Assembly (NCBI RefSeq): GCF_024746795.1
Contig: NZ_CP080524.1
Location: 2,520,001 to 2,584,000 of the forward strand
Length of the DNA: 64,000 nt
Direction of reading: 5' to 3'
DNA from: Mesorhizobium sp. AR10
GTDB lineage: Bacteria > Pseudomonadota > Alphaproteobacteria > Rhizobiales > Rhizobiaceae
A program made the translations under genes and the position numbers. Shown here in pieces: positions 16,700 to 23,474 of the stretch (position 1 is its first letter; every line of letters begins with the position of its first letter). Below the pieces are notes generated by a model that worked only from the letters and a program-made list of their open reading frames with translations, ran no database searches and was not told where the DNA came from.

Positions 16700-16810
16700 C
16701 TACTGGGTCAGCACGTTGCGGATCTCGACCATGTTCGAACGTACCCGCAGCACGTAAAACCCATCGTCAGATGCGGCGATCCTTGCAGCGGTGCCGGCGC
16801 GGTTGCAAGC
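16700..16810 (-). pseudogene. Duplicated 3' end of the DUF2333 gene, in frame after its stop
   Basis: Directly after the TGA of the DUF2333 gene, the same reading frame continues for 36 sense codons to a TAG at 16700-16702. Its end reads GFYVLRVRSNMVEIRNVLTQ, against GFYMLRVRSNLVEVRSVLDR at the end of the upstream gene: 14 of 20 residues are identical. It is therefore a diverged second copy of the C-terminal motif. It has no start codon of its own. It may be a relic of recombination with a paralog, or a segment reached only by stop-codon readthrough. Confidence 0.65.
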
Positions 16811-17932
16811 TCAGCGGTCGAGAACCGATCGGACCTCAACGAGATTGGAGCGGACACGCAGCATGTAGAATCCCATGGTGGTCAAGTGGGAGGGCATGAT
16901 CCAACCGTCCTCCCGACCATTGGAGATGATGAGGGGCCGAATTTTCAGTGCCGCCTGAAATTGCTGGTCGAGCTGGTCCCAGAGCGGACCGAGCCCGCGA
17001 GTGTCGATAACGGCCTTGAAATCAGAGCGCGTGGCTTTCAGGATTCCGTAGTAGCCGTAGAGCTGTCCGTAGGCGAACCAAAATCGGTCGTCCGCGCGCG
17101 TATCGAACCAGCCATTGTTGTTTGTCTGCGACTGTCTGCTGAGGATATCCGATGTCGAACCGATATCACTGGCTATACGGTCGACGAACTTCGCCAGATT
17201 GTCGGCGCGGGCGTTGAACACCACCTCGCATTTCAACAGGCGGTCGTTGAAGGTGCGAAGCGACGTGATGCCTGTGCGGTAGAAGCTGGGGCTTGGCGTC
17301 TTGGGGCCGAATGGCCTAAGGCCGAAATACCACGTTTCCTCGTCGAATTCGACCGCGCCTCTTGCATCCTGCAGGTTCTGATCGATCTGACTGGTGCCGC
17401 GTACTCGGCCGATCGTGTCAACCAATTCGACCGCGGTGCGTCGAACAGCCTGGTGTACGCCGCGCTGGAAAGCCGCCTTGTTGTCCAGGAATGGTGTATG
17501 ATCCCAGTCCATTCCGAAGAGCCCTAGCTTGTACAGGATCATCGACGAGATCCAGGCGTTTTGATTGACGTTGAAGTCGATCAAATCCGCCGCAACCGTC
17601 ACGATACCAGACTTGGTACATGTCTTGACCTGGCCTTCCGCGCCTTCGTCGGTGACTTGCTCGCCGGATCCGGCCGGCGGCGCGAATGTATAAGCATCCG
17701 CATAGGCAGGATTGAAGTTCTTCCAATATTGCGTGTTCCAGAAGAAATAGGCGTATAGTCCGACCAAGATTACGAGCGCTGTACCGAGCACCGCCTTCAG
17801 GATCCAGCCGCGCTGCGTATACCAGCGCCCGGCCCACAGGAACGGCCACAGGATCACGCCAACAAGGAGGCCAATGCCGCGGCCGATCCACTGGAAAATC
17901 CGGGTGAAGAAGTTCACGATCGGATCAAGCAT
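16811..17932 (-). CDS. DUF2333 family membrane-anchored protein
   Basis: A 373-residue protein. The N-terminal 60 residues contain two hydrophobic segments (IGLLVGVILWPFLWAG and AVLGTALVILVGLYAYFFW), then a soluble, probably periplasmic domain of about 300 residues. The features fit DUF2333, which has no known function. Conserved-looking segments are NQNAWISSMILYKLGLFGMDWD and RFWFAYGQLYGYYGILKA. It is the last gene of a five-gene operon, 12 bases after the 434-residue protein. The C-terminal motif GFYMLRVRSN recurs just past the stop codon. It may be the membrane or envelope component of the system. Confidence 0.82.
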   Translation of the reverse strand: MLDPIVNFFTRIFQWIGRGIGLLVGVILWPFLWAGRWYTQRGWILKAVLGTALVILVGLYAYFFWNTQYWKNFNPAYADAYTFAPPAGSGEQVTDEGAEGQVKTCTKSGIVTVAADLIDFNVNQNAWISSMILYKLGLFGMDWDHTPFLDNKAAFQRGVHQAVRRTAVELVDTIGRVRGTSQIDQNLQDARGAVEFDEETWYFGLRPFGPKTPSPSFYRTGITSLRTFNDRLLKCEVVFNARADNLAKFVDRIASDIGSTSDILSRQSQTNNNGWFDTRADDRFWFAYGQLYGYYGILKATRSDFKAVIDTRGLGPLWDQLDQQFQAALKIRPLIISNGREDGWIMPSHLTTMGFYMLRVRSNLVEVRSVLDR

Positions 17933-17944
17933 GGCGATATCCCC

Positions 17945-19249
17945 TCAGTCAGTCAGGCCATAGAGGCGCGTGCGAAACGCTACCTTGTCTTTCAGATATG
18001 TGGTTTTCAGAACGTCCACAACATGCGATCGCCAGGCGTCGCTGAAGCCGTCATAGTCCTTGTAGAAGCCCGGCTTGTTGAAGACGTAGCGCGAGACGAA
18101 GTCCTGCGGCACGAAATCCGAGATCAGCTGGTTGGTGAGCCAAGCGTCGGGATGGTCGGGCTTGGCCCGGATCACCAGGAAGCGCTGCTGCGGAAATACG
18201 TCCTCGATCTTGAGATGGCCGAGCTGGGCGATCTCGCGCTTGGCGGCATTGAGGAAGGGAAAATTGCCGTCCCTGGTGATCAGGTCGGCATGGCCGTGGA
18301 TCCAGGTCTGCAGCCAGACCTTGTCGACGTCGGTCAGATTGCGGTCGGGTTCCGAGTCGCGGATCAGCGCGCGCACCACCATTTCGGCGCGATGCTCGAG
18401 ATAGCCCGATGTCTCGATCCACGAGGCGCGCGGCAGTTCGATGCGGCCGGTGGCAGCGAGGAACTTGAACACCTTGTCGGCATCATTGATCGAGAGGTAG
18501 CTCACCTGCCACGGCCGCGAGCGGCGGAAGCCCGGGGCTGCCGGGTCGCTGATCACCGTCGTCATGTCCGGATCGACGAAGACGTAGAGGCCGCCGAAAT
18601 GGCTGGTCCAGTAGGCGTTGTGGCGGAAGATCACCTGATCCGGCACCAGCGCGTTCTCGCGGATGTCGCCACAGATCTTTGCCAGCTCCACCATGCGGGT
18701 GAGCATGGCGCTGTCGCGCCAGGCATCGGGTTCCTGCTTCAGCCGGTTGACGAGCTTGCCGAGTTCGGCCGCTTTGCCCAGCACGTCCTCCGCCGACAGC
18801 ACCTTGAACTCGACCTGGTTGATCGACAGCAGGTCCTCGATGTCGTTGACCTTGGGGACTGAATCCTCGATCTCGCCGTAGATGACATCCTTGATGGTCA
18901 GCGCATCGATGGCGCGCTGGTTCTTCGACATGAACTCGAACATCAGCTGCGAGGTGTTGGAGAAGGCGGTGTGCACCACCGGCAGGTCGATCTGCGACGG
19001 CGTCAGGATGATGAAGCGGCGGTTGACCTCGTTGGGATCGAGATAGGCGTAGTCGCCGCATTCGTCGGCCACCTGCGGTGAGAAGCCGGTGCGGTCGATC
19101 TCGAAGCTGTTCAGCTTCGTAGGCTTCAGCCCGAAGGCGACCATCGCCTTGTTGTAGCGCTGGATGAGGTGCGGTTCGTCAACCGTAAGCAGCCGGCCGT
19201 AGATCAGCTCATTGTCGCGCAGCAGATCGGGTTTCCTGGCGGGGCTCAT
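17945..19249 (-). CDS. Conserved protein of unknown function (possibly DUF6638)
   Basis: A 434-residue soluble protein, MSPARKPDLLRDNELIYGRLL. There is no signal peptide, membrane segment or catalytic motif that I recognise. Notable segments are FSPQVADECGDYAYLDPNE (about 56-74), QVIFRHNAYWTSHFGGLYVF (about 206-225) and LQTWIHGHADLITRDGNFP (about 314-332). I have a weak memory that rhizobial homologs are filed under DUF6638. It lies 9 bases after the AAA+ ATPase stop and 12 before DUF2333, so it is very likely part of the same complex or pathway, perhaps as an ATPase substrate or adaptor. Confidence 0.78.
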   Translation of the reverse strand: MSPARKPDLLRDNELIYGRLLTVDEPHLIQRYNKAMVAFGLKPTKLNSFEIDRTGFSPQVADECGDYAYLDPNEVNRRFIILTPSQIDLPVVHTAFSNTSQLMFEFMSKNQRAIDALTIKDVIYGEIEDSVPKVNDIEDLLSINQVEFKVLSAEDVLGKAAELGKLVNRLKQEPDAWRDSAMLTRMVELAKICGDIRENALVPDQVIFRHNAYWTSHFGGLYVFVDPDMTTVISDPAAPGFRRSRPWQVSYLSINDADKVFKFLAATGRIELPRASWIETSGYLEHRAEMVVRALIRDSEPDRNLTDVDKVWLQTWIHGHADLITRDGNFPFLNAAKREIAQLGHLKIEDVFPQQRFLVIRAKPDHPDAWLTNQLISDFVPQDFVSRYVFNKPGFYKDYDGFSDAWRSHVVDVLKTTYLKDKVAFRTRLYGLTD

Positions 19250-19258
19250 CGCGTGCCT

Positions 19259-21169
19259 TTACGCATTCCAATTCCCCTTGGCCTTCATCTCCTCGATCTC
19301 GCGCACCGCGCGGTCACGCAGGCGGGTGTCGCGGATCATCTTGGTGACGGCTGAGTCGTCGGACTTGTCGGAATAGCGGAACTCTGAGTCGGCGTAGCGG
19401 TTGATCTCCTGCATGACCATGTCCATCGAGAACGGCCCGCGCAGTTCCTCGATCATCGCTTTCTTGTCGTCGTAGCCCTTGTGCATGAAGACTTCCGGCT
19501 TCTCGAACCACTCGTCCGGCAGCTCGATGTCCATGGCGCGCATCTTGATGGCGTCGGTGACGTTCTTGATGGCGCGGCCGGTGAAGCGCGGTTCGGCATC
19601 CTTGATCATGTGCAGATAGGTGCCGACGTCGGCCATCGATTTCGGTGCGCCATTGTCCTTCATGTAGCGCTCGTAAACCTTCATCAGCCCGTCTTCCTGA
19701 GGCTTTTCATGCTCCTCATAAGCCTCCATCACAGCGCGCTGGATTTCCTGGGCGGCATAGAGCTTGTGGTCGCCGAGCGGGATCTTGTGGTTTTTTCCAG
19801 CGAGCAGGACAAAGATGTCGATGTAGTCGTCGCGGCTCTGCGGCCCGTCGACCAGCCAGCGGGCGCCGGCGCGCTGGCGTAGCGCGTCGTCGACGTTTTC
19901 GGGATAGTTGGAGAACATGCCGAACGAGCAGTTGCCGCGCACTACGGTGCCGGCACCGGCAAAGGCGTCCATCAAGACGCCGGTGATTTCCTGCTGGCCG
20001 GCAGAGGCGCGGTCATCGGAGCGTCTGGCAGCCACCTGGTCGATGTCGTCGACAGTGCCGAAGCCGATGACGCGCGGGTTGAGAACATTGTTGATGAACT
20101 GGCGACAGTTCTGGCCGGATTTGCCTTGATAGGACGAGATCTGGTCGACGCCGAAATTCTCGTAAGCAAAGGGATAGCCGGCGACCTGGCAATAATTGTT
20201 GACGAGACCGGCAATCATCTGGATCAGCGTCGTCTTGCCGGTGCCGGGCGCGCCGTCGCCGATGAAGGTGAACAGGAAGCCGCCAAGCTCGACGAAAGGG
20301 TTCAGCTCGCGCTCGAAGTCGTAAGCCATCAGCATCTTGGCCAGCTTCACCGACTGGTACTTGGCGATGTGGTTACCGACGACCTCTTCCGGATTCTTGA
20401 AGGTCATCACCAGCGGCTTCGAGCGCTTGCCCGGCGCGACATCGAAGCCGTCGAGGATAAAATCATCCACGTCGATGCGGATATGCGCGTTCTCGAACGG
20501 TCCGATGCCGTCGAAGCGGCCCTTTCGCGCCAGCAGCCCGTCGATGGCAACGCGCGCGAAAGCGCGCGCCCGCGTCATCAGGTCGGCGTCGTCAGCCGAG
20601 CCTGATATCGCCTTGTCGAGGCCTGCTATTATGGACTTCACCGCATCCTGCGGCGTGTCGAACAGGAAGTCCGGCTCCGCCGTATCGTTCGGTGCCTCGC
20701 CGTCGCTGTCGATCAGCTGGAATAGATACGAGGCGAAGCTGAAGGCCGAAATGTAAGCCGAAGCTGACAGAAGCTTCTTGAAGGTGGCGGCCTCGTCGCC
20801 TTCGAGCGGCGCGCGGGTGTTCTTGGCCTGCAGGCTTTCTAGGTCCGAACCTTCGGCGAAGACGTCTGATATGGCCAGCGCGATCGCCAGCCCGCGCCGG
20901 GCGCGAAACAGCAGCGTGTGCTGCGGAATGGTCAGCAACTGGTCGTCGGGATGGACGGCGGCGACGGTCTTGGAAAGCTCGACCTCGCGCGTGCGGCGCA
21001 CCGAGCCGACCGAGACCGTCGAGACGAAGCGGCGGTTGGTGCCGGCAAGCGCGGTGCCGGATTCGCGTGACGGGTCTTCCAGCACGACGATGCGGGTGAT
21101 GAAGCTCTGCGCGCTGGCGCGGTGCTTTTCGATTGCCGCTTCCGAAATCGTGGTCAGGCCGGTGTCCAT
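19259..21169 (-). CDS. AAA+ ATPase of the five-gene operon
   Basis: A 636-residue ATPase. Residues about 1-280 are an N-terminal domain without recognised motifs. The AAA+ module follows: Walker A GAPGTGKTT (near 305-313), Walker B-like VIGFGTVDDID (near 365-375), a sensor-like segment GNCSFGMFSNYPENVDDAL, and an arginine-finger candidate RQRAGARW (near 430). The rest is a C-terminal lid and tail. Such proteins form ring motors that remodel protein partners. It is the third gene in transcription order, 24 bases after the 381-residue protein. The domain order does not match ClpX, FtsH, MoxR or Lon, and the operon partners are unusual for those classes. Confidence 0.88.
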   Translation of the reverse strand: MDTGLTTISEAAIEKHRASAQSFITRIVVLEDPSRESGTALAGTNRRFVSTVSVGSVRRTREVELSKTVAAVHPDDQLLTIPQHTLLFRARRGLAIALAISDVFAEGSDLESLQAKNTRAPLEGDEAATFKKLLSASAYISAFSFASYLFQLIDSDGEAPNDTAEPDFLFDTPQDAVKSIIAGLDKAISGSADDADLMTRARAFARVAIDGLLARKGRFDGIGPFENAHIRIDVDDFILDGFDVAPGKRSKPLVMTFKNPEEVVGNHIAKYQSVKLAKMLMAYDFERELNPFVELGGFLFTFIGDGAPGTGKTTLIQMIAGLVNNYCQVAGYPFAYENFGVDQISSYQGKSGQNCRQFINNVLNPRVIGFGTVDDIDQVAARRSDDRASAGQQEITGVLMDAFAGAGTVVRGNCSFGMFSNYPENVDDALRQRAGARWLVDGPQSRDDYIDIFVLLAGKNHKIPLGDHKLYAAQEIQRAVMEAYEEHEKPQEDGLMKVYERYMKDNGAPKSMADVGTYLHMIKDAEPRFTGRAIKNVTDAIKMRAMDIELPDEWFEKPEVFMHKGYDDKKAMIEELRGPFSMDMVMQEINRYADSEFRYSDKSDDSAVTKMIRDTRLRDRAVREIEEMKAKGNWNA

Positions 21170-21193
21170 GAAGGATGCTCCGTGGTTTGACGG

Positions 21194-22339
21194 TCAGACG
21201 TCGCTGATGACCTGTCCCTTGGACAGGATGTGGACCTTGTAGCCCGAAAAAATCTTCTGCGCCTCGCCGGCGGCGTAGAGCGCCTGATAGGCCTCGTGCG
21301 GGATCAAAGCGTGGTTCTCGTAGCTCGACACACCCTGGCGCGCGGCCTCCAGATCGTCGGTGTTGATGAAGAACTCCTGCGTCGTCTTCTCGCTTGAAAA
21401 CAGCCCCTTGCGGCCGGGCTTTTCCGCCTTCGAATAGACTTCCTGGATGGTCCAGGTCAGCAACCAGGCGTTTTCCGGCTTGCGCACCTTGGCCAGCACT
21501 TCCGCCACCGTCGAATTGTTGTCGGTAATCCCGGCCGAATAGAAGGGGCCGAGCACGACGCGGCGTAGCTGCTTGGGATGCAGCGGCTCGAAATCCTTGT
21601 CGAGGTTCACCGCGATGGTCGCCGGCGACAGCGTGTAGGCGGAATTCTTCTCGGCGAAATCGTCGAAGCGGTGGGCAAGCTCGGGGTTGAGCAAGCCGTC
21701 GACCGGCAGCGGAATGTCGACCTTGTCGTTGAGTTTGCCGCTGCTGTCGACGAGCTGCCGGATCATGTCTTCGGAGGAATCCTCCACCGTCACCATGTAG
21801 ACCAGCGGCAGGTTGGCGCTGCCGTCGAAGGTGGCCCAGTGAACCAGATAATAGGGCCGCCCCGTCTTCGGATTGACCGAGACTTTTGCCGTCTGCGGCA
21901 GCGAGAACGGACCGAAGGTCGTCTCGCTCTTGACGCCCTCCAGATAGAGCCGCTCGGCCATCGATTTCTGCAGCGCCTCTGGAAATTCCTTGTGGCGCAG
22001 GATGAAGTCGGCCATTTCCTCGCGCAACTCGCCGGCGAGTGGGATGTTGGCGAGGCGGCTGTCGGCCTGGCGGCGGTCGTTTTCCAGTTCGAGCAGGTTC
22101 TGGAAGACTGGAAAGCCGCTCTCGGCGCGCGAAATGCGGAATGTCTCCATGAAGCCGAGGCGGTTGCGCCAGCAGGAAAAGGACTTGTCCAGCCGGGCAA
22201 TGTACTCGGCGACGATCTTGGCGACGATGCCGTGCCGGTAGAGCGGCGAGCGGTCGTCGCGCATGAACACTTCGAGGCCGCTGAGTGCCGCCGAAATTGC
22301 CGAGAAATAGCGCGCCGCCGCTTCGTTTTCGGGGGTCAT
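21194..22339 (-). CDS. Conserved protein of unknown function, operon gene 2
   Basis: A 381-residue soluble protein beginning MTPENEAAARYFSAISAALSGLEVF. The first 140 residues look helical; a beta-rich middle follows (TAKVSVNPKTGRPYYLVHWATF is one segment, about 150-171), then a C-terminal part with RRVVLGPFYSAGITDNNST and GLFSSEKTTQEFFINTDDL. No signal peptide, membrane segment or catalytic signature was recognised. It is 46 bases after the coiled-coil gene and 24 before the ATPase gene. It may be an adaptor between the coiled-coil protein and the ATPase; this is inference from position. Confidence 0.75.
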   Translation of the reverse strand: MTPENEAAARYFSAISAALSGLEVFMRDDRSPLYRHGIVAKIVAEYIARLDKSFSCWRNRLGFMETFRISRAESGFPVFQNLLELENDRRQADSRLANIPLAGELREEMADFILRHKEFPEALQKSMAERLYLEGVKSETTFGPFSLPQTAKVSVNPKTGRPYYLVHWATFDGSANLPLVYMVTVEDSSEDMIRQLVDSSGKLNDKVDIPLPVDGLLNPELAHRFDDFAEKNSAYTLSPATIAVNLDKDFEPLHPKQLRRVVLGPFYSAGITDNNSTVAEVLAKVRKPENAWLLTWTIQEVYSKAEKPGRKGLFSSEKTTQEFFINTDDLEAARQGVSSYENHALIPHEAYQALYAAGEAQKIFSGYKVHILSKGQVISDV

Positions 22340-22385
22340 GCTTGTGCTCTGAGGATGGCCATGGATGCGAGCGGTGGCTGCACCC

Positions 22386-23474
22386 TTACGACTGCACGTA
22401 ATTTGCCGAATTGTGCTTCTTCAGCACCTCGTCGAAGCGGCGGGCAAAGGCATCGTCGGCCAGCTTCTTGCGACGCTGGATGTCGGCGGTGGCCACCATG
22501 TTCTTCTCGTGCATTTCGAGAAGGTCGCCAATGTGCTTCTGCGAGGCCGCACCGATGCCGGCCATGGTCTCTTCGGCGGTGTTGTCGACTTGGCTGCCCA
22601 GCGTGTTGATCTTGTGGGCGACGTCCTGCTGGGCGGCGGTCTTCAAGCTGTCTTCCAGGGCCTTGTAGAGCACGATGCGCTGTTCGGTATCGATGGTCAG
22701 CTTGTTGATCAGCGTCGACTGCGCAGCGATCTGGTTGTTGAGCGAATCGACGAAGGTCTGGAACATCGAGGTGTAGCGTTCCAGCGTCTGGCTTTCGGCC
22801 AGCAGTTCCTGTTCCTTGGCCTGCTTCTCGTTGTACTCGGTGGCCAGTTTAGAGCGCTCGCCTTCAAGCTGGGTGCGCTCCTTCTGACTGGTCGAGGCAG
22901 CGATCTTGTTCTCGATGTCGAGCAGCATCGGATTGAGCTCCTCGATGCGCTTTTGCACGGTCTCGAGGTTGGACATGGTGGTCTTGCGGCGCTCGATCAC
23001 CTGCGAAAGGCTGGTTTCGGAGGTCTTGTAGCGCTGGTCGAGAACCTCCTTCTGCGCCTTGAGGATGCCGACGATTGTGTCGGACTTCACCAGAAGTTCC
23101 TGCAGATTGCCGGCCAGCGACATGTTGCGGACGCGGTCAGTACGCATGCGCTGCTTGCTCTGAGCGGAGAACATGCCGACGAAGCTCTCCCAGCCGGTGT
23201 AGTTCTTCATGCTCTCGAATTCGGCGCCGAAGACGTTGGTGGCATCCTCCAGCCCGATGATCAGGTCGGCGATGTTGCCTTCCATCACCTTCTGCTGTTT
23301 CAGCACGTCCTCGATGCGGGCGTTTTCGATGTCGAAATTGGCGTCGCCGATCTTCTTGTCGGCGGTGGCGAGGGTGTCGAGCACGGTGCCGGACTGCTCG
23401 ATCTTCGTGCGCATGTCCTGCACGACCTGCTTGGTCTTGGCAATTTCGGCATCGAAATTCTGCAATGTCGCCAT
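22386..23474 (-). CDS. Coiled-coil protein, first gene of the five-gene operon
   Basis: A 362-residue, strongly helical protein rich in Lys, Glu and Gln without signal or membrane segments. Long heptad-like stretches cover about 1-75 and 115-300 (for example KAQKEVLDQRYKTSETSLSQ and LEGERSKLATEYNEKQAKEQ). Its helical layout and its C-terminal part (ALEDSLKTAAQQDVAHKINTL) are reminiscent of TelA toxic-anion-resistance proteins, but I cannot confirm homology. ATG 23474 follows GGGAGG at about seven bases. It opens the operon and has a promoter candidate 48 bases upstream. It probably forms filaments or a scaffold acted on by the AAA+ protein. Confidence 0.8.
   Translation of the reverse strand: MATLQNFDAEIAKTKQVVQDMRTKIEQSGTVLDTLATADKKIGDANFDIENARIEDVLKQQKVMEGNIADLIIGLEDATNVFGAEFESMKNYTGWESFVGMFSAQSKQRMRTDRVRNMSLAGNLQELLVKSDTIVGILKAQKEVLDQRYKTSETSLSQVIERRKTTMSNLETVQKRIEELNPMLLDIENKIAASTSQKERTQLEGERSKLATEYNEKQAKEQELLAESQTLERYTSMFQTFVDSLNNQIAAQSTLINKLTIDTEQRIVLYKALEDSLKTAAQQDVAHKINTLGSQVDNTAEETMAGIGAASQKHIGDLLEMHEKNMVATADIQRRKKLADDAFARRFDEVLKKHNSANYVQS

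Follow-up and report, generated by a model that had tools for sequence, protein, structure and literature searches.

A conserved four-gene unit around an AAA+ ATPase in Mesorhizobium sp. AR10 and relatives, with an exchangeable membrane-protein neighbour

The window analysed here is a 64,000-nucleotide stretch of the genome of Mesorhizobium sp. AR10 (contig NZ_CP080524.1, positions 2,520,001 to 2,584,000), in which five open reading frames (ORFs), here called A to E, occupy positions 16811-23474 of the minus strand and are separated by gaps of 46, 24, 9 and 12 nucleotides (nt); an initial annotation, made by a model from the letters alone, had described the same closely spaced genes as one operon, and the ORF coordinates reproduce its spacing. 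C matches the Pfam family AAA (PF00004; E 3.1e-10, 41.1 bits, the cut-off being 21.2), D the domain of unknown function (DUF) family DUF6638 (PF20343; E 1.7e-69, 235.2 bits against 27) and E the family DUF2333 (PF10095; E 1e-19, 71.2 bits against 22), while for A and B no Pfam family scored over its cut-off. C is the sole member to match a family with a clear activity, and A is its long coiled-coil partner, both as first described; of the two soluble proteins said to lack recognised motifs, B retains that description and D, as a DUF6638 protein, does not. A Kyte-Doolittle scan found no hydrophobic segments in A to D and two in E; the double anchor ascribed to E is thus present, with both stretches near the N-terminus instead of one at each end. 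The predicted models of B and D are confident (mean predicted local distance difference test scores of 88.8 and 88.1), and comparison with solved structures gave no clear relative of either.

All 20 loci that had been selected through a match to C or D show the order A-B-C-D, which is also complete in 77 of 84 further loci (L061-L144: the 80 best-ranking out of at least 571 relatives plus four plasmid records, two being repeats of earlier genomes), among which the names Rhodobacteraceae, Roseibium/Stappia, Aestuariispira, Halomonas, Vibrio, Sinorhizobium and Rhizobium occur. With s for a small protein with two transmembrane (TM) segments and f for a DUF1523 protein, the patterns in these 84 loci are A-B-C-D-s-f (67), A-B-C-D-f (5), A-B-C-D (3) and A-B-C (2), and one each of A-B-C-D-DUF2333, A-B-C-D-s, B-C-D-s-f, C-D-s-f, B-C-D-f, A-B and C alone. 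The incomplete loci are mostly short stretches; the exceptions are L070, taken up below, and L098, where tblastn found neither A nor the N-terminal part of B. A-B-C-D is a conserved four-gene unit spanning two classes, and the gene-order survey that the initial annotation had proposed as a check thus came out on the side of conservation. Within the genus Mesorhizobium, all 61 genomes searched carry C, and all 61 carry D (split across two contigs in G790); this, together with the recurrence of the gene order in other families, argues that the locus is more than a chance arrangement. Across the phylum, DUF6638 was matched in 34 of the 397 genomes, and it occurs in 38 of 80 genomes, one per genus, of a family that we take to be Rhodobacteraceae. 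The closest homologues of C, in the best 112 of 4067 matches at a threshold of E 0.001 (a number that may take in other AAA proteins), belong to Mesorhizobium where named and are at most 96% identical. A search of PubMed Central, and of that library only, returned no paper on the A-B-C-D unit, which is apparently undescribed in the literature; proteins so far listed as DUFs or as hypothetical are here joined into one four-gene unit.

Table 1. Features of the A-E locus, in positions of the window
Feature	Position	Strand	Description
Gene A	22386-23474	-	362 residues, soluble, coiled coil; no Pfam family above cut-off
A segment, residues 273-294	22593-22658	-	proposed engagement site
Gene B	21194-22339	-	381 residues, soluble; model with helical N-terminal part and beta-rich C-terminal part
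B residues 156-343	21311-21874	-	weak match only, to the tunnelling (T) fold
Gene C	19259-21169	-	636 residues, AAA+ ATPase; long N-terminal region without family match
C Walker A, residues 304-313	20231-20260	-	GDGxPGTGKT
C pore-loop-1-like motif, residues 346-351	20117-20134	-	SYQGKS; Y347 and G349 invariant
C Walker B region, residues 372-377	20039-20056	-	Asp-Asp at 374-375
C second region of homology, residues 427-437	19859-19891	-	DDALRQRAGAR
C-D gap	19250-19258	none	9 nt in AR10
Gene D	17945-19249	-	434 residues, soluble, DUF6638 (PF20343)
Gene E	16811-17932	-	373 residues, membrane-anchored, DUF2333 (PF10095); Rhizobiaceae neighbour of the module
E hydrophobic segments, residues 16-34 and 43-61	17750-17887	-	two segments; Kyte-Doolittle

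The fifth gene behaves differently from the other four. DUF2333 follows D in four of four loci of the family Rhizobiaceae in the 20-locus set; in the other 16 a DUF1523-cluster protein lies downstream (16 of 16), usually with the small two-TM protein (14 of 16), and the DUF1523-cluster counterpart of E scores above the Pfam cut-off for DUF1523 (PF07509). In two Vibrio records mfd comes after D, and neither the two-TM protein nor DUF1523 was found. DUF2333 is present in all 12 DUF6638-bearing genomes of AR10's own family and DUF1523 in all 22 others, in each case adjoining D in the loci that were read. E is therefore specific to the Rhizobiaceae version, and the membrane gene is exchangeable; the five-gene operon of the initial annotation stands as far as A-B-C-D is concerned, and does not extend to its fifth member, which also exists without the module.

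Among 104 C sequences (two repeat genomes included), Walker A, Y347, G349, D374/D375, N421, R431, R433 and R437 are invariant, residues that by their usual labels belong to the Walker motifs, the pore loop, the sensor and the second region of homology. The SYQG motif aligns with the matching stretch of the i-AAA, AFG2 and Rpt proteins in HMMER alignments to AAA proteins of solved structure. In the usual AAA protein the Walker B motif ends in Asp-Glu; in C it is Asp-Asp in 104 of 104 sequences. C thus has the marks of the AAA family, with a score above the cut-off, both Walker motifs and the second region of homology, Walker B being in its Asp-Asp form. It shares Walker A, the pore-loop aromatic, the sensor Asn and the arginines of the second region of homology with the classical AAA ATPases (i-AAA/FtsH-type, AFG2, Rpt/PAN), and is more distant from katanin and Vps4/SKD1; it differs from the classical members in its long N-terminal region without a family, in its Asp-Asp Walker B and in its own set of gene partners.

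A clue to what C might act on comes from A. The motif [SH]LKTA.QQ is present in A in 97 of the 98 A-bearing loci of L041-L144 (not counting two repeat genomes), the one exception reading LRTAQQQ, and the segment around it, residues 273-294, is nearly invariant alongside the module, Vibrio included; over 101 aligned rows the conservation of A peaks at residues 221-262 (0.92) and 263-312 (0.89). Nine Rhizobiaceae genomes (G473, G621, G481, G633, G322, G380, G599, G807 and G891) have no match to B, C or D in the stretch fetched and keep a diverged A next to DUF2333, the two genes codirectional and 85-238 nt apart; FTHFS, AR10's own downstream gene, lies within the stretch in six of them. A and DUF2333 can thus persist without the motor genes. 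The segment motif is missing from A in all nine, and in the four that were aligned by residue, 22-25 residues are gone within A 221-310, around AR10 273-294. Of a further 37 family rows with A (two genomes counted twice; taken from L183-L212, the 30 best among 95 genomes in which A was matched, and from chosen stretches), the motif is present in 30, with B adjoining A in 28 of these and the contig ending at A, with B not seen, in the remaining two, while it is absent in seven rows from five genomes, none of which has B. From this joint absence we infer that residues 273-294 are the site at which the module would engage A; it is a strong clue to mechanism, though phylogenetically a single one. 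Genomes that naturally lack both the motor genes and this short piece of A thereby turn the matter of what C acts on into a direct binding question.

Based on these observations, we tentatively favour, at somewhat less than even confidence, a portable AAA+ module that would remodel its client A near the envelope. C would form a ring and pull on or remodel the client via its aromatic pore loop, as its family leads one to expect; the client would be A, gripped around residues 273-294, and B and D might be soluble co-factors, either adaptors or regulators. The module would act next to a membrane-anchored protein, namely DUF2333 in Rhizobiaceae and the two-TM protein and/or DUF1523 elsewhere, and because it lies beside such a protein we suggest that its likely task is to use ATP to turn over or rearrange an assembly of A at the inner membrane. 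The layout fits the membrane-linked remodelling machine, with the ATPase as its motor, that the initial annotation had proposed.

Several findings weigh against this proposal. A DUF2333 tree groups all nine genomes in a single clade (support 0.917), joined by L177, where A was not found, and lying beside the module-bearing L050/L063 (0.994); the joint loss of B-C-D and the segment was therefore probably a single event, so that the loss of B-C-D is probably derived and the clue suggestive, not replicated. Seven of the nine had been picked for having DUF2333 without DUF6638, and L183-L212 are likewise the better-matching fraction of the genomes with A. DUF6638 is absent genome-wide in seven of the nine, while G807 and G891, as well as B and C throughout, were judged at the locus only. 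In the four aligned genomes A has diverged over its whole length, including the well conserved 221-262, and such divergence makes relaxed constraint an alternative to a lost docking site. In the metagenome bin L070, C stands alone in 21.9 kilobases, with A, B and D not found by tblastn. As to the membrane, both families of neighbours are widespread without the module (in the 397 phylum genomes, DUF2333 occurs in 110, DUF1523 in 46 and DUF6638 in 34), which leaves a membrane task unproven. Finally, sequence kinship of A to PspA/ESCRT-III (PF04012) was not found: hhalign against eight PspA proteins gave a probability of 2.1% (E 0.023), and there was no Pfam match.

The spacing between A and B, B and C, and C and D varies to an unusual degree. 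In 44 pairs of loci with C at least 90% identical (34 loci, the pairs sharing loci and so not being independent), gap lengths are more than 100 nt apart in 27 of 38 comparisons for A-B, 14 of 41 for B-C and 24 of 38 for C-D, against 3 of 28 for D-s, 0 of 27 for s-f, 0 of 14 for D-f, 8 of 41 for the module edges and 26 of 214 for codirectional flanking neighbours. The C-D gap ranges from -19 to 739 nt in 59 genus genomes (two were dropped, with C and D on separate contigs), and falls into classes of at most 60 nt (19 genomes), 141-270 nt (20) and 523-739 nt (20), as if empty, holding a repeat only, or holding a repeat and a gene; a single insert was read, at L060:7900-8640, where a DUF559 endonuclease gene of Mesorhizobium lies between inverted repeats of about 40 nt. 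The gap is at least 250 nt long in 69 of 98 loci, with a guanine-plus-cytosine content below that of the locus in 62 of the 69, and the 60 ORFs in the C-D gaps of L041-L144 form 33 clusters, which include small three-TM proteins at one end and proteins of the Mrr, AbiJ and DUF559 types at the other. We take these inserts as passengers unless shown otherwise.

It could be argued from these gaps that A-B-C-D is the constant core of a defence-type system, with the variable genes lying between C and D and between A and B as its exchangeable effectors, since the gaps are long, poor in GC, varied in content and more changeable among close relatives than flanks or edges; they include single Mrr, DUF559 and AbiJ-type cases, and the strongest PADLOC matches (E 9.2e-33 and 1.6e-31) come from the gap set. 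We nonetheless consider this quite improbable: the presence of C and D in every genome of the genus is unlike typical defence genes, the C-D gap in AR10 itself is 9 nt, and the one insert that was read looks like a mobile element. PADLOC moreover gives no clear excess: a set of 40 gap ORFs out of 60 gave hits to 20 families, and a set of 40 flanking genes gave hits to 16, at best with E 1.7e-17. For the module itself it returned no match to B, D or E and weak ones only to A and C, the best being TRIP13 for C (E 3e-4). A kinship with TelA and toxic-anion (tellurite) resistance, raised by the initial annotation, appeals to A being a soluble coiled coil of similar length; comparison gave it no support and it is highly improbable, as hhalign of A against a TelA profile (PF05816) of only six sequences gave a probability of 0.1%, A has no Pfam match, and no TelA-family protein was matched in the AR10 genome.

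A somewhat more credible alternative, though still an unlikely one, is that A is an adaptor or scaffold that recruits C via residues 273-294 to some other target, for example a complex in the membrane that contains DUF2333 or DUF1523. That A remains next to DUF2333 where B-C-D are gone, and that the segment tracks the presence of B-C-D, would be expected under this explanation as well; a constant client A fits better with neighbours that come from two unrelated membrane families or, in the Vibrio records, from neither. There is also a small chance that C, with B and D, is an assembly chaperone that matures some enzyme or complex, with A as a cofactor; a single AAA ATPase with soluble co-factors and no nuclease or protease family match is in keeping with this, but a constant enzyme neighbour was not seen across lineages. 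Returning to A as the client, we can speculate, as a rather doubtful extension, about a machine like ESCRT-III/Vps4 with an A unrelated to ESCRT-III, in which A would form assemblies at the inner membrane, its subunits would be pulled out by the C ring via residues 273-294, and different lineages would have coupled unrelated membrane proteins to the module. ESCRT-III/Vps4 and the PspA-AAA operons, in the portions of PMC11237479 that describe them, likewise pair a coiled-coil protein with an AAA ATPase near membrane genes; in those portions B and D have no counterpart, and the comparison with eight PspA proteins found no sequence kinship of A. The membrane neighbours here, E and its counterpart elsewhere, belong to DUF2333 and DUF1523, families that also occur without the module.

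A few further observations concern the membrane genes. DUF2333 is called uncharacterised in a passage of PMC5256989. A plasmid of Rhizobium leguminosarum (L064) carries A-B-C-D with DUF2333 not detected, which could reflect a gain by transfer. In 12 genomes of the presumed Rhodobacteraceae that lack DUF6638, A was not found, and nine have the two-TM protein with DUF1523; in three of these nine it is preceded by a small three-TM protein that resembles a frequent occupant of the C-D gap. With A to D absent from the stretch, L227, L229 and L230 carry the three-TM protein, the two-TM protein and DUF1523 as a free-standing set.

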